Shown here: piece after piece, positions 18,028 through 59,626 of the stretch | Numbering within the stretch: the first letter of the stretch is position 1 | How the letters are laid out: each line of letters begins with the position of its first letter | Source of the DNA: a virus | DNA length: 60,318 bases | Strand: one strand, 5' to 3' | IMG/VR virus record: IMGVR_UViG_3300043783_000122 | Location: 1-60,318 of that record | The notes under the pieces: generated by a model | What the model saw: the letters and a program-made list of their open reading frames with translations, nothing else | Told to the model about the DNA's origin: nothing | Databases searched by the model: none | Translations under genes and position numbers: made by a program

Positions 18028-19263
18028 TTAGATGACATCGGCTACAGCGCAAGCCCATTCGGGCCTTATCCAGAGATAGCCGTAGAGGACATCGAGCCGG
18101 GTGAGCAACTGATCCGTGCCCGGAATGTACGCCGTGAGCATCCGCATCGCCACCCCGTCGAATTCCTCCCTCGCCGCCTCCTCCACGCCCTTCGTCGGCA
18201 TGATGAGGTCGGCGGTGGCCATCGTCACGCCCTCGGGGGCGAAGAGGAAGTTCTTTCGATAGGCGACGCTGGCGGGGTTGACAAGCGTCACCGCTCCCGC
18301 ATTTGCGGGCGACACGTCCACGGTCTGGTACTGGACCGTGTTGGCGCCGACAGCGGGGATCAGCGCGGGATAGATCGAGACATTCGTGCCACCACCAGGG
18401 ACCGCCGCAGTCACGACGAACTGGCGAAGCTGCGAGCTGGCCTGCTTGGTGATCCGGTTGACCATATGCACGCCAGCGAAGGTGATGATGTCACCCACGT
18501 TGAGCGTGCCAGTGCCAGTGTTGATGAGAATGTTCAGCCCGGTCTGGCCAGCGCCGTTCACGAGATAGCCCGCGGCCGAACCTCCGGTATGCGTGAGGAC
18601 CGTCTGGTCCATGTACCAGTCGCCGCCGAGGGTGTCGCTGGCCATCTTGCCAGTCTTGTACTGCTCGCCGATCTTCTGCTGCGGGTTGAACAGTCCCGAC
18701 AGCGAAGAGACCGTGCGAGACTCCGTGATCGGATCGAGGATGAACTTCCAGTCGCCCATGGGGGCGGAGTTCTGCTTGAGGTACGCGCCGGCTTGCAGCC
18801 ACGTCTGCGCCACGGGCGAGATGAGGTTGCCGGCTCCGTCGCTGTTCTGCACATAGTTGCAGATTCCCGCTCCGTTCGTGCCGCCAGTATCGACGCCAGA
18901 CATCACGTCCGCCGCGACGTTGCCCGCGAGATTGTTCACCATAGGGGCCAGGACGCGGCGGGAGAAGTCGTCGAGGCTCATCGTGCGATCGACAGTGTTG
19001 AACGAGACATCGACGCCCTTTTGCGTAGCGAGCACCAGCGTAGTGTTCTGCTCCGCCGTGTCCTGGACGGACGCTGCAGGCCCCGTTCGCACCGTGAAGT
19101 CGTTCGGCAGACGAATTCGCAGCGAGGTGCCGATCTTGGCACCCGTCTTCGCGAAGTTGTCGTCGTACTGCATATCCAGGTGCTGGATGAATGCGTTGCT
19201 GTTCTTCCAGAGGCGAACGGCCTCTCGGGTAATCATGTTGATAGTGAGAAGACTGTTGGCCAC
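18028..19263 (-). CDS. Major capsid (coat) protein, P22 gp5-like family
   Basis: This protein has 411 residues and starts at GTG 19263 after GGAG. Hallmarks are ITREAVRLWKNSNAFI, YDDNFAKTGAKIG (33-45), LRIRLPNDFTVRTG (49-61), ATQKGVDVSFNTVDRTMSLD (79-98) and FLFAPEGVTMATADL near the C-terminus. This is the P22-type HK97-fold coat family. The scaffold gene lies upstream and the gp4-like adaptor downstream, as in P22. A divergent fragment of the same family occurs at 30144-30371. Confidence 0.93.
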   Translation of the reverse strand: MANSLLTINMITREAVRLWKNSNAFIQHLDMQYDDNFAKTGAKIGTSLRIRLPNDFTVRTGPAASVQDTAEQNTTLVLATQKGVDVSFNTVDRTMSLDDFSRRVLAPMVNNLAGNVAADVMSGVDTGGTNGAGICNYVQNSDGAGNLISPVAQTWLQAGAYLKQNSAPMGDWKFILDPITESRTVSSLSGLFNPQQKIGEQYKTGKMASDTLGGDWYMDQTVLTHTGGSAAGYLVNGAGQTGLNILINTGTGTLNVGDIITFAGVHMVNRITKQASSQLRQFVVTAAVPGGGTNVSIYPALIPAVGANTVQYQTVDVSPANAGAVTLVNPASVAYRKNFLFAPEGVTMATADLIMPTKGVEEAAREEFDGVAMRMLTAYIPGTDQLLTRLDVLYGYLWIRPEWACAVADVI

Positions 19264-28808: not shown

Positions 28809-29029
28809 CAGTGGAGCGTACCATTGTGTGAGTGCAGAGTCTCCAAGCCAAACGACAGCTTCGGCCGAAGGAGCGAGAATTCTGGTGAGACCCGCTCGGC
28901 CAGGGTGATCTTCGCCCGAATCGTCTCGGCGCGAAGGCCGCTCTTGTACGCGTGCAGCTCCTTGACCCACTTCGGCGCCCGAACGAACCAGGGCACATTG
29001 CCACTAGCACGTTTCACAGTATCGGTCAT
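28808..29029 (-). CDS. Hypothetical protein (73 residues)
   Basis: This is a short mixed protein with FVRAPKWVKELHAYKSGLRA and a helical middle. It lies between the nuclease-like gene and the HEIVEW-motif gene, overlapping both. No family was recognised. Confidence 0.68.
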   Translation of the reverse strand: MTDTVKRASGNVPWFVRAPKWVKELHAYKSGLRAETIRAKITLAERVSPEFSLLRPKLSFGLETLHSHNGTLH

Positions 29030-29669
29030 ACTTCCTCCTCACAAACCTATCACACACGTCCGAGGCGTTAACGTCCCCCGCGACGAGCGAGCAATCATGG
29101 GGGGCTCGGAACATCGTGCAGAGCGCGCACTTGCGGCTCGCGACCCCCAGTCCGTAGCTGACCTTGGCCTTGGGGAGCTTCCCGTGCTGGAGGTCATAAA
29201 GGTATCCCTTGAGCTTCCCGGAGTACGGCGAGAGATCGAGGTCCGGGGGACAGGATAGGATTTTCTCGTGCTCAATAGGTTTATAAAGCGGTCGAAGAAG
29301 CGCACGGTACTCGGCAGGAGTGTGACCGAGGGTACGACAATAGTCATCCTCGGCCGCCGTTGCGAGGTGGTGGCGGAATTCGTACTCGCGATGCCAGGGC
29401 TTGAGCGACCACTCGACGATCTCGTGAAGCGCCACGAGCGTCCGGCACCACGGCTCATCCCTCGTCCCCGCGATGAGCGTGGGGTCGAAATAGACGTGCT
29501 CGCCAGAGAGAGATGATCCTGCGAGGTATGGGACCTCGTACTTGAAGATATACTTGCGCGAGCGCGAGATTCTCGTCCTGAGCTCCCCGTGCTCATGGAT
29601 GAGTTCCCTGAGCCTTTCGAGCGAGCCTTCGGGCGGCTCGTCGTCGTAGATGCTGTCGCCAGAGCTCAT
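29004..29669 (-). CDS. Protein with HExxE-type motif and C-terminal cysteine cluster
   Basis: This protein has 221 residues. The middle has LVALHEIVEWSLKPW and then HHLATAAEDDYC, a helix-helix pattern with His/Glu spacing like metal-dependent hydrolases. The C-terminus carries a cysteine group, KCALCTMFRAPHDC then VCDRF, resembling short iron-sulphur or zinc modules seen in phage proteins. Whether it is an enzyme is open. Confidence 0.75.
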   Translation of the reverse strand: MSSGDSIYDDEPPEGSLERLRELIHEHGELRTRISRSRKYIFKYEVPYLAGSSLSGEHVYFDPTLIAGTRDEPWCRTLVALHEIVEWSLKPWHREYEFRHHLATAAEDDYCRTLGHTPAEYRALLRPLYKPIEHEKILSCPPDLDLSPYSGKLKGYLYDLQHGKLPKAKVSYGLGVASRKCALCTMFRAPHDCSLVAGDVNASDVCDRFVRRKYDRYCETC

Positions 29670-29748: not shown

Positions 29749-30093
29749 TTAGAAGATCGAAGACTGCGCGTTCACCGTGGTCTCGACCGCGGCGATCAGC
29801 TGGGCGATCTTGAGCGGATCGGTCGTCGCACGGAGGCTTTCGAGGAGCGGAAGCACGGTGCTCGGGAGCCCATTGATCGTCTCAATCTTCGTGATGATCG
29901 CCGGGCCGCTCGCCGCCAGGGCGGCCGGATTGTTCACCAGCGCCATCAGTTGCGTCAAGTCCTGGTTGACCTGATTGGCCACGCTGCCGGTCATGGTGCC
30001 GGCGACGGACGCCAGTACGCTCGTGGCCTGCGTTCCCGTGATGCCAGAGCTGTTGAGTGCTCCGACCAACGCCGAGAAGATATTCTGTCCCAT
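29749..30093 (-). CDS. Hypothetical Ala/Thr-rich helical protein
   Basis: ATG 30093, eight bases after AAGGAG, gives 114 residues (MGQNIFSALVGALNSSGITG...). It is a low-charge helical protein with NQVNQDLTQLMALVNNPAAL and a C-terminal helix. It has no clear membrane span despite its hydrophobic composition. Role unknown; located between lysis and packaging genes. Confidence 0.72.
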   Translation of the reverse strand: MGQNIFSALVGALNSSGITGTQATSVLASVAGTMTGSVANQVNQDLTQLMALVNNPAALAASGPAIITKIETINGLPSTVLPLLESLRATTDPLKIAQLIAAVETTVNAQSSIF

Positions 30094-30143
30094 CTTTATC
30101 GCTCCTTGGTTGTGTCGGAGAATTATGGAAAGGTCTGACACTG

Positions 30144-30371
30144 TTACCTCACCATGAAGTCGTTGGGGAGTCTGATACGCATTGTCTGTCCTATCTTGGC
30201 TCCAGCACTTGCGAACTCGCTATCGTAAGTGGTGAAAGCCACATCTACACTTCGTTGAGTTGCAATGGTCTTGATTGCCTTCGGGGCTGCTACTGGCGCA
30301 GCCTTCCAGCCGCCGGCGAGGAGTCCAGCAAGACCACCAAGGAAACCTCGCCGGGCTAATTGCATCGTCAT
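30144..30371 (-). CDS. Chimeric mini-coat gene: Tat-like leader plus rearranged coat segments
   Basis: This gene encodes 75 residues. Residues 1-30 look like a twin-arginine leader (LARRGFLGGLAGLLAGG). Residues 37-50 (ATQRSVDVAFTTYD) match coat residues 79-92, and residues 49-75 (YDSEFASAGAKIG then RIRLPNDFMVR) match coat residues 33-59. The two coat pieces are therefore in reverse order. By my count the second is 19/27 identical in protein but only 53/81 in DNA. It is ATGA-linked to its neighbour, so it looks like a maintained gene rather than debris. Confidence 0.72.
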   Translation of the reverse strand: MTMQLARRGFLGGLAGLLAGGWKAAPVAAPKAIKTIATQRSVDVAFTTYDSEFASAGAKIGQTMRIRLPNDFMVR

Positions 30372-30685
30372 CCTGCCAGAAAGTCTGGATTGGGCACCTG
30401 TCCGACGCTACCATCGGCGAGATACCCGTCAATGAACTGCGGCTGGTGCATCTTCCACGAGGCCGTGCCCGCGTGCGCCGGCCCCACACGGGAGATGTCC
30501 TCAATGAGCTTATCGAACGCCGGGTGTAGCGCCTGCACGGCCACGACGACGGCCGGTTCAGCGTCGGCGAGGGAGCCCGCGAGCCCGATCCAGTCGGCGA
30601 GCGAGAGCCCGCCGAGCACGGCGCCGATCGAGCCCCCAGAAATGAGCCCCGAGATGACCGGAATGAGTGCGAGAAGAGCGCCCAT
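30368..30685 (-). CDS. Small protein with hydrophobic N-terminus
   Basis: This gene encodes 105 residues. Residues 1-40 are hydrophobic (ALLALIPVISGLISGGSIGA) and probably membrane-inserted. The rest (FDKLIEDISRV, MHQPQFIDGYL) is soluble. It lies just downstream of the holin, coupled on both sides, and may be a lysis accessory. Confidence 0.7.
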   Translation of the reverse strand: MGALLALIPVISGLISGGSIGAVLGGLSLADWIGLAGSLADAEPAVVVAVQALHPAFDKLIEDISRVGPAHAGTASWKMHQPQFIDGYLADGSVGQVPNPDFLAG

Positions 30686-30867
30686 CAGTTCGCTCCCTTT
30701 ATACGTGCGGCCAGGATGGCATTCTCAATCATAAGCGCAAGCGCCCAACGAGAAGAGAATGTAATGCTAGCATCGCCTACATTAAATGGCAGCAAGATTT
30801 GCCCGGCTCCTGGCCCGTAGATTATGCTCATAGTTTCTTTCGAGACCTTCGGCGCTTCCTCGCCCAT
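30685..30867 (-). CDS. Small hypothetical protein (60 residues)
   Basis: ATG 30867 shares one base with the holin-like gene's stop (TGATG). The peptide begins MGEEAPKVSKETMSIIYGPG and ends in a helix WALALMIENAILAAR. Candidate lysis accessory or minor structural protein; no family was recognised. Confidence 0.65.
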   Translation of the reverse strand: MGEEAPKVSKETMSIIYGPGAGQILLPFNVGDASITFSSRWALALMIENAILAARIKGAN

Positions 30868-31316
30868 CAGCCTTGCCCCGGACGATAGGTGTCGGCCTGC
30901 GGGGGCGCTGGAGCCGCCGAACTGACCTGTGCCGCCACCAGCGAGCCAGCGACGACCACGGTCGGACTGGGAATGGCTTTGGCGAGTGCCTTGCCGGCCT
31001 CGGACTGATCCGTAATGACCCCCTTGACCTCGGGAATGGCATCGACCACCTCGGTCGCATACTTCTTCGTATGAACGTAGAGGCCCCAGATGAGCGTGGG
31101 GAGGGTCAGAATAGCCCAAACCGCAGCGTTCATGAACTCGGGAGAGTTCAAGAGCGCCATGATGGTCTTGGCATCAGCCCAACCCTTGCCCGCGACGAAG
31201 CCGGCGATGCCAGCCCCGAACGTTGTGACGAACCAAGAGACTGCGCTCTTCGCCTGCTCGGCGTTCGGAACGATGGTGATGCCGCTTGGCTTCGATGCGC
31301 TATTATCCGGGCTCAC
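30867..31316 (-). CDS. Holin, Pam3-gp28-like
   Basis: This protein has 149 residues, with GTG start at 31316 overlapping the lysin stop (GTGA). Two membrane spans are seen: VSWFVTTFGAGIAGFVAGKG (about 26-45) and AAVWAILTLPTLIWGLYV (about 64-81). They are followed by EVVDAIPEVKGVI, the usual continuation in this holin family, and a soluble C-terminal tail. It should release or activate the adjacent lysin at the end of infection. Confidence 0.8.
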   Translation of the reverse strand: MSPDNSASKPSGITIVPNAEQAKSAVSWFVTTFGAGIAGFVAGKGWADAKTIMALLNSPEFMNAAVWAILTLPTLIWGLYVHTKKYATEVVDAIPEVKGVITDQSEAGKALAKAIPSPTVVVAGSLVAAQVSSAAPAPPQADTYRPGQG

Positions 31317-32218
31317 TTTTCGTCCTCCTTGACGGCCAAGATGGCCTCTATTGCCGCGCGGCCGAGCACGTTGGCCATCTTCGCGCTCGCGCCCGAGGGA
31401 ATAACTAGACCCATCTCGGCCAGACCGGCGGCGAGGCTATGGACCCCGTTCGCCAGAATGGCCTGGATCGCCGTCGTGGCCGCGTCGAGCTGGCGGTCGT
31501 GGAGGCTGGGTGCGTTCGCGACCCTCGCAGCGATCTGCATTTGGGCTTCCTCGATGCTCTTTGCGCTTGGCGCGCTTGATGCGGCTATCTGAGCGTCAGA
31601 GAAGGGAATGAACTGGCCCCAATCCTCGCCATTGGGCGTGTCGATGTCACAATCGACGCCAGCGACCTTCGTGGGAAGCCCCTGGTGGAGGACCCATTTC
31701 TTGCTGGCGAGGAATTCGGCCGAGCCTAGCCACTTCCCCGGCGCGGCGAGCCAGGCGAGGTTCGCATATCCCGCCGCGAGGGCCGCGTTGCAGACCGCGC
31801 CGCTTGCATACACCCCCACGCGGGCTTTGAACGCGCTGGCATCGAAGGCTACTCGAATGGCCTTGAAGTACGGCATCACAAGCGACATGATTTGCGTCGT
31901 GCTGGCATCGGTATCGACGGCGAAATAGACGCAGGGGTTCCCCACGCCAATCGTCCCGAGCTCGCGCAGGGCGGCCAAGGCGTGCTGAGCGTCGCGCGTC
32001 CCGGCCGCCGCTGAGATGTCCCCATGGGCGAAGTCGCCCCAGCCCTCGCTCACGAGGGTGAGCGACATACGTGCGTCCGCGATGGCCTTCGTCCGTGCTG
32101 GCGTGATGACTTTCGACGTAGTGCCGTGCGGATTGAGATACCCTATGATGTCCGTCACCCCGGCCTTGGCGAGGGCGGGGAGATGCGCGGTCACATCGAC
32201 GTTCACATCAATTATCAT
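31313..32218 (-). CDS. Endolysin, DUF1906 (Rv2525c-like glycoside hydrolase) type
   Basis: ATG 32218 gives 301 residues. Residues 1-210 form a TIM-barrel-like domain: DVNVDVTAHLPALAKAGVTD, IGYLNPHG, then ARMSLTLVSEGWGDFAHG, VYFAVDTDAS, VGVYASG, and WGQFIPF. This matches the DUF1906 group related to GH25 lysozymes; acidic residues in EGWGD and DTD are candidate catalytic ones. The C-terminal 90 residues are helical. There is no signal peptide, so the holin would release it. Confidence 0.83.
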   Translation of the reverse strand: MIIDVNVDVTAHLPALAKAGVTDIIGYLNPHGTTSKVITPARTKAIADARMSLTLVSEGWGDFAHGDISAAAGTRDAQHALAALRELGTIGVGNPCVYFAVDTDASTTQIMSLVMPYFKAIRVAFDASAFKARVGVYASGAVCNAALAAGYANLAWLAAPGKWLGSAEFLASKKWVLHQGLPTKVAGVDCDIDTPNGEDWGQFIPFSDAQIAASSAPSAKSIEEAQMQIAARVANAPSLHDRQLDAATTAIQAILANGVHSLAAGLAEMGLVIPSGASAKMANVLGRAAIEAILAVKEDEK

Positions 32219-58852: not shown

Positions 58853-59626
58853 GTGATTCAGCTCGAACATGATGGCCTGTGCTGTCGGTGGCTTTACGAT
58901 TATGATATAGCCACCGACAGCATGCTCACGCGTTTCGACGCGATTATGGGCCAGCAGCTTCGCGAGAATCGGTTCAATCATATTACACCGGAGATAATTA
59001 TCTTCGCCCTGGAGCACTACGCAGCGCAGATCGAGGAAGTCAAACGACGAGCGAGAGCCGAGCCGGGGCTCCAGTTCTCCTATAACTTTCATATAACGCA
59101 CCATGAGATCATTCGCGCACAAGAGAGGCCAAGGCATCTTGATGTTCTCTACGACCATATGCACTTTAGGCCAGAGTGGCTCGTCTATCACGAGGGCGCA
59201 AACAGCTCGTATGCCGATCGAGCCAGGGCGGAGGCTAAGAGTATCGAGCTGCTCAAGTCCTGGCTAGACCCAACTCAGCTGCGAGACTATAAAAGCCACC
59301 GGCACTTCACTGTGCGAGGTAGCGACACGGGGAAGTTTTATCGTCTGGTCGGAGAGAGGAGCTACAATATCCTCGAACTTGGAGGCTCCTCGATGGAGCC
59401 CAATGGGAACAAGTTCTGCGTCGTTCCGCGTGATAGCGTAGCCATGGGAGACCAGCTCCTGGCGCAGAAAATCTGGCTGGAGACGGACGAGGCTAGAACG
59501 CTCGCGATAGCGAATAAGGTCGCTAGGGGCGGCAATGGACAACTCTTGCAACATATCACGCGGGAGGTGATAGAGATGTTTCAGAACAGTAATGTGTTTC
59601 TTCGAAATCTCCGAGACCACGAATGA
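58853..59626 (+). CDS. Hypothetical protein with conserved C-terminal QKIWLET-type motif
   Basis: The frame from GTG 58853 encodes 257 residues. The C-terminal part (HRHFTVRGSDTGKFYRLVGE, NILELGG, KFCVVPRDSVAMGDQLLAQK, IWLETDEARTLAIANKV) follows a pattern I know from small bacterial and phage proteins of unknown function. The start is uncertain: no ribosome site is seen, and a perfect 13-base inverted repeat (58881-58921) lies in codons 10-23, ending right before an in-frame ATG at 58922. Confidence 0.75.
   Translation: MIQLEHDGLCCRWLYDYDIATDSMLTRFDAIMGQQLRENRFNHITPEIIIFALEHYAAQIEEVKRRARAEPGLQFSYNFHITHHEIIRAQERPRHLDVLYDHMHFRPEWLVYHEGANSSYADRARAEAKSIELLKSWLDPTQLRDYKSHRHFTVRGSDTGKFYRLVGERSYNILELGGSSMEPNGNKFCVVPRDSVAMGDQLLAQKIWLETDEARTLAIANKVARGGNGQLLQHITREVIEMFQNSNVFLRNLRDHE
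58881..58921. repeat. Perfect 13-bp inverted repeat
   Basis: GCTGTCGGTGGCT (58881-58893) pairs perfectly with AGCCACCGACAGC (58909-58921) around a 15-base AT-rich loop. It abuts the ATG at 58922. It could be a translational regulator, an operator or a terminator without T-run. Confidence 0.7.

Follow-up and report, generated by a model that had tools for sequence, protein, structure and literature searches.

A small phage gene that joins permuted coat-protein pieces to a Tat-like leader, and a class of head-fragment mosaics to which it belongs

Among the systems described so far, those closest to the locus considered here disturb, redirect, or sense the phage coat. Tai is an established case of assembly interference (PMC11364771), PLE of coat remodelling by a satellite (PMC10945586), SaPI of capsid redirection by a satellite (PMC12409344), and CapRel of host sensing of a coat protein (PMC9712102). 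We describe a 75-residue gene, the mini gene, in a viral DNA of 60,318 nucleotides (IMG/VR record IMGVR_UViG_3300043783_000122, positions 1 to 60,318; this whole stretch is the window), which joins a twin-arginine (Tat)-like leader to two short pieces of the P22-type major coat protein. Its product would resemble Tai, PLE, and SaPI if such mosaics bind coat subunits and so disturb or redirect another phage's assembly. The abstracts on these three systems speak of neither coat fragments nor a Tat-like leader, a difference of description only, and they concern interference by satellites and prophages, whereas the mosaic genes lie in phages themselves. In CapRel-type sensors a host protein recognizes coat, so a coat mimic could matter; such a sensor is host-encoded, unlike the phage mosaics, and any contact between the two would be hypothetical.

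The mini gene, its parts, and the coat gene of the window lie as follows.

30144..30371, minus strand (30371 to 30144): mini-coat mosaic gene, 75 amino acids, ATG start, TAA stop
30306..30371, minus strand: Tat-like leader of the mini protein, residues 1-22 (leader hidden Markov model, HMM, E 0.0036)
30228..30269, minus strand: coat piece 1, residues 35-48, corresponding to coat 77-90 (profile P about 5e-5)
30147..30227, minus strand: coat piece 2, residues 49-75, corresponding to coat 33-59 (19/27 identities, profile P<1e-15)
18028..19263, minus strand: major coat protein, P22 type, 411 amino acids (PF11651 E 2.4e-33, phrog_283 E 1.9e-61)

The mini protein reads MTMQLARRGFLGGLAGLLAGGWKAAPVAAPKAIKTIATQRSVDVAFTTYDSEFASAGAKIGQTMRIRLPNDFMVR over its full 75 residues. 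That it contains two coat segments in swapped order, as the original prediction proposed, is confirmed down to the identity counts: residues 37-50 match coat residues 79-92 at 9 of 14 positions (DNA identity 66.7%), and residues 49-75 match coat residues 33-59 at 19 of 27 (65.4%). In BLASTP against all open reading frames (ORFs) of the window, the second piece reached E 1e-8 and the first 0.15, and in an all-against-all comparison of these ORFs coat and mini protein formed by far the strongest pair among separate genes. The concern that the matches might not be significant was laid to rest by a profile of 82 coats, against which piece 1 reached a level attained by none of 1000 shuffles and piece 2 lay far lower still (P values above). 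Piece 2 retains the core YD..FA..GAKIG...RIRLPNDF of the P22-type coat (PF11651, phrog_283), the source of both pieces. Compared with that coat, the mini protein holds short permuted pieces only, behind a leader; 41 of its residues align, permuted, to the 411-residue coat, and it is not a full-length coat with the HK97 fold. Searches against Pfam and PHROGs reported no coat match for it. An AlphaFold model places strands at 41-47 and 61-67, which correspond to the swapped coat strands, with a predicted local distance difference test score (pLDDT) of only 60.

Other phages' coats also match the mini protein, that of Pseudomonas phage PAE2 at E 6e-6, and among the 82 coats the window's own ranks 26th for piece 1 and 15th for piece 2. 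Duplication of the own coat is therefore not supported, and neither piece is a recent copy of it, in keeping with the earlier view that no recent copying error is involved. The mean identity of piece 2 to coats is 0.70, against 0.83 from coat to coat, with synonymous sites saturated. The junction between the pieces lies where both coat sites read xCGAy.

The N-terminus of the mini protein carries ARRGFLGG and a hydrophobic run, initially read as a twin-arginine-like leader. An HMM built from 80 leaders of other phage ORFs, with the mini protein left out, upholds that reading: of 1,324 window segments it ranks the mini leader highest (E 0.0036). The leader is nevertheless degenerate in the part that reads APAIVRASSLMPVKA in the class described below, and it fails the strict leader motif. 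Class leaders share the RRxFL motif and short hydrophobic run of Tat signal-bearing proteins (PF10518, TIGR01409), and several score slightly under the curated cut-offs: relatives reach 12.7-14.4 bits against a cut-off of 16.7 and 13.2-17.7 bits against one of 22.7. The cargo differs as well, being a head-protein fragment in the class and a folded enzyme or binding protein in Tat substrates.

The mini gene does not stand alone: its ORF belongs to a class of proteins made of short head-protein pieces, often permuted and usually behind a Tat-like leader. The pieces come mostly from the coat, namely its N-arm, F-loop and E-loop, P-domain, I-domain, and C-terminus. In phages with the same coat type, small ORFs carry the leader pattern RRxFLxGLxxLxAAPAIVRASSLMPVKA followed by head-protein pieces. 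In fifty coat-bearing phage records, the mini protein found a single additional non-coat match, a 128-residue ORF in genome G030 consisting of the leader SRRGFLAGLGAFAFAAPAIVRASSLMPVKA and then coat 4-59; the next gene, overlapping it, bears the same leader type, then coat 369-403, then coat 97-122, and G030 holds several leader mosaics. A leader-profile search further yielded G029, G011, G024, and G036. The G029 mosaic joins coat 95-110 to coat 3-27 and 45-53, and that of G011 joins coat 95-124, counted as probable only (profile P 0.08, BLAST E 0.012), to coat 2-48. The coat match of G030_120 is weak (P 4e-3), and coat-profile comparison found no significant coat piece in L124.

When 50 coat-selected records were searched with the coat profile, blind to the leader, a Tat-like leader stood on seven of the eight non-coat ORFs with coat pieces; by the strict motif it occurs in one of 1,991 ORFs of 60-300 amino acids (coat-selected loci and window), the G024 mosaic. 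Among mosaics linking distant coat regions, permutation is clear in the mini protein, the G029 mosaic, G030_126, and two orthologs, a 257-residue protein of the window and a 294-residue protein of the sister phage G001 (60,064 bases; coat 79% identical to the window coat); it is probable in G011, and the G024 mosaic follows coat order. Mosaic pieces seldom match the own coat best, and the leader genes sit in the packaging/late block, beside terminase, portal, or coat genes. Full-text literature searches on the leader sequence, phage Tat leaders, and coat-fragment proteins gave no description, and within the databases and literature covered the combination of leader and head fragments looks new. 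A further leader-bearing mosaic in G001, of 196 amino acids, includes a coat C-terminal region and lies in a virion gene block (L182:1926-2516, minus strand). A leaderless ORF beside a leader mosaic (L152:10459-11049, plus strand) carries coat I-domain 235-301 after an apparent coat C-terminal piece.

The class extends across coat types. An IMG/VR leader scan found 87 relatives. Eighty loci were retained, and about 24 of their 80 leader-ORF tails resemble head proteins: P22-type coat at 11 loci, phrog_9953 coat at 5, a coat type that carries the annotation major capsid protein at 5 (one of these confirmed at E 3e-4), probably phrog_212 coat at 2 identical loci (E 6e-4), and portal at 1 (E 5e-5). 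The remaining tails have no recognized match; some are common to several contigs, such as those of L138, L140, L144, and L141 (for example PPRCDHCFAAWGMCSHTGGP) and of L135, L146, L150, and L151 (for example IPERWATVWGVGWDFEVV). Tail matches to longer ORFs (L106, L132, L149, L161, L176, L177) represent the same frame with an upstream start and were not counted separately. Among bacterial genomes, leader ORFs were found only in one Hyphomicrobiales and one Methylocapsa metagenome-assembled genome, apart from a Bradyrhizobium binding protein whose Tat signal is an ordinary one; this distribution suggests that the hosts are alphaproteobacteria.

A second mosaic lies elsewhere in the window.

58853..59626, plus strand: second mosaic protein, 257 amino acids, no leader; coat pieces by profile, ortholog in G001
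58871..58939, plus strand: coat piece 369-391 (P 6e-6)
59138..59179, plus strand: coat piece 390-403 (P 4e-5)
59555..59608, plus strand: coat piece 11-28 (P 4e-6)

Its three coat pieces surround a non-coat domain (LLKSWLDPTQLRDY..FTVRGSDTGKFYRL..GDQLLAQKIWLETDE). The 294-residue ortholog (L181:1146-2030 of G001) is 53% identical by BLAST and 59% over aligned columns, with a nonsynonymous rate (dN) of 0.37, a synonymous rate (dS) of 2.5, and dN/dS of about 0.15. The pair is under purifying selection, and this permuted protein is thus being kept. Searches of viral contigs and annotated phages found no member of the family beyond G001. One leader-bearing phage has a relative of the non-coat domain with other flanking sequence (L189; G095:6050-6346), where no P22-type coat pieces were recognized. 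An AlphaFold model of the 257-residue mosaic (pLDDT 36) was not used.

What might such proteins do? In mature P22 the N-arm reaches into the neighbouring subunit (PMC9965877), and with the P22 domain limits from the same source the pieces of 21 P22-type mosaics derive from the N-arm, the F/E-loops, the P-domain, the I-domain, and the C-terminus; coat residues 131-230, most of the A-domain, supplied no piece in these 21. We propose that the mini protein is a leader-targeted capsid-contact mimic. The leader would bring it to the inner membrane or periplasm, its coat pieces would imitate the segments with which coat subunits grip their neighbours, and by docking on coat subunits or procapsids it could block or modulate coat assembly. 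Since the pieces resemble the own coat no more closely than they do others, the coats of competing relatives would be as likely a target as the own coat. We put the probability of this reading at a little over one in three. In its favour count the profile significance of both coat pieces, the modelled strands, the recurrence of the leader-plus-coat-piece architecture in independent contigs, the frequency of Tat-like leaders on non-coat ORFs with coat pieces (seven of eight, against one of 1,991 ORFs), the leader ORFs of other phages that carry other coat types and portal pieces, the origin of the pieces outside coat residues 131-230 together with the reach of the P22 N-arm, the purifying selection on the 257/294-residue pair, and the stronger conservation of leaders than of tails. 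Extended to the whole class, namely that alphaproteobacterial soil phages keep and diversify leader-targeted proteins of permuted own and foreign head pieces for capsid-contact mimicry, whether phage against phage or in control of self-assembly and for several coat types, the proposal is less likely than not.

Several observations weigh against the mimic. Tat export is hard to reconcile with capsid assembly in the cytoplasm, unless the leader serves only as an anchor, and the mini leader is not reported by the Pfam and NCBIfam Tat models (PF10518, TIGR01409); the 257-residue mosaic has no leader at all. Within the coat, conservation is lowest in this same A-domain stretch (consensus frequency 0.68 versus 0.75-0.90), so that its absence from the mosaics is suggestive only and may partly reflect poor detection. 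Direct homologues of the mini protein were found neither in IMG/VR nor in GTDB genomes, searches of annotated phages matched coats only, and a pattern scan for RIRLPND-x-x-V-R followed by a stop returned nothing. The expectation that related phages keep the frame is thus disappointed for the mini gene, which has no close homologue, whereas a class of similar mosaics does exist.

Much of the remaining adverse evidence is what a turnover of relics and newborn genes would produce. Under this explanation, illegitimate recombination has time and again placed short in-frame stretches of head genes behind a conserved leader cassette; most tails have no selected function and decay or are replaced, and the mini gene is a recent capture from an unsampled coat. 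Leaders are more conserved than tails, which are hypervariable and evolve faster; in L102:9977-10387 (plus strand) a frameshift lies inside the coat-derived tail, the other frame reading IRLPKAFTVR where coat homology stops; the mini gene is absent from G001, where the only match to its protein is the coat; its GC content at third codon positions (GC3) is 0.53 versus 0.75-0.82 in core genes; and xCGAy at both coat sites of its junction would fit microhomology. Turnover accounts less readily for captures that are in sense and in frame, for conserved leaders and several leader mosaics in one genome (G030), for the low dN/dS of the 257/294-residue pair, and for the strong association with head proteins. 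It is a serious contender, though short of even odds. For the mini gene itself, with no close homologue keeping the exact frame and a sister phage lacking it, a frozen relic remains almost as likely as a docking mimic.

A third explanation makes the protein a membrane tether, fixed in the inner membrane by its leader and gripping procapsids or coat subunits with its coat pieces, to the benefit of the phage's head assembly or of local concentration. The union of leader and capsid pieces and the position of the genes in the packaging/late block agree with it, but a helper of own assembly should retain own-coat pieces, permuted and variable pieces suit a fixed structural role badly, and the sister phage does without the mini gene; we consider it improbable. 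Known coat sensors act in the cytoplasm. Least likely is a decoy or modulator of host defence or superinfection, whose exported or membrane-bound head mimics would occupy coat or portal sensors or block entry of a second phage: coat-sensing host systems exist (PMC9712102), the leader suggests export, and both coat and portal pieces are used, but the site of the sensors does not suit it, coat is not injected at entry, and a fragment could trigger a sensor rather than block it.

Phage mosaicism is usually described for genes or whole domains; in the present class the shuffled units are about 14 to 60 residues long and come from a virion protein under strong constraint. They are often permuted and mostly follow a targeting signal, and such rearrangement recurs in several coat types. 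Should these proteins be functional, they would represent a new route to capsid-binding effectors, and assembly inhibitors could be drawn from them; should they have no function, they would exemplify gene birth in which one conserved leader captures short coat fragments. In both cases, annotation by family models overlooks most such ORFs.

The immediate surroundings of the mini gene are as follows.

30368..30685, minus strand: 105-residue gene upstream of the mini gene; ATGA overlap, 64% identical in G001
29749..30141, minus strand: 130-residue gene downstream, GTG start; 80% identical in G001
29004..29669, minus strand: 221-residue gene; in G030 and G036 its homologues come immediately after leader-mosaic genes

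The predicted ATGA coupling to a neighbour is real, the mini start overlapping the stop of the 105-residue gene, and the GTG start of the 130-residue gene lies 2 bases past the mini stop. The mini gene stands two genes upstream of the 221-residue gene and within the late/packaging block. In G001 the 105- and 130-residue genes adjoin with nothing between them, so the mini gene was either gained in the window phage or lost in G001. A coat tblastn match to the 130-residue neighbour was an artefact of summed statistics. A 60-residue ORF (30685-30867, minus strand) between the holin-like and 105-residue genes has a GC3 of 0.54, low like that of the mini gene, is missing from this place in G001, and has no family match. 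The endolysin-like gene at 31313-32218 (minus strand) encodes an Rv2525c-like glycoside hydrolase domain (PF08924, E 5e-21) and has a clear counterpart in G001 (L003:8445-9278).
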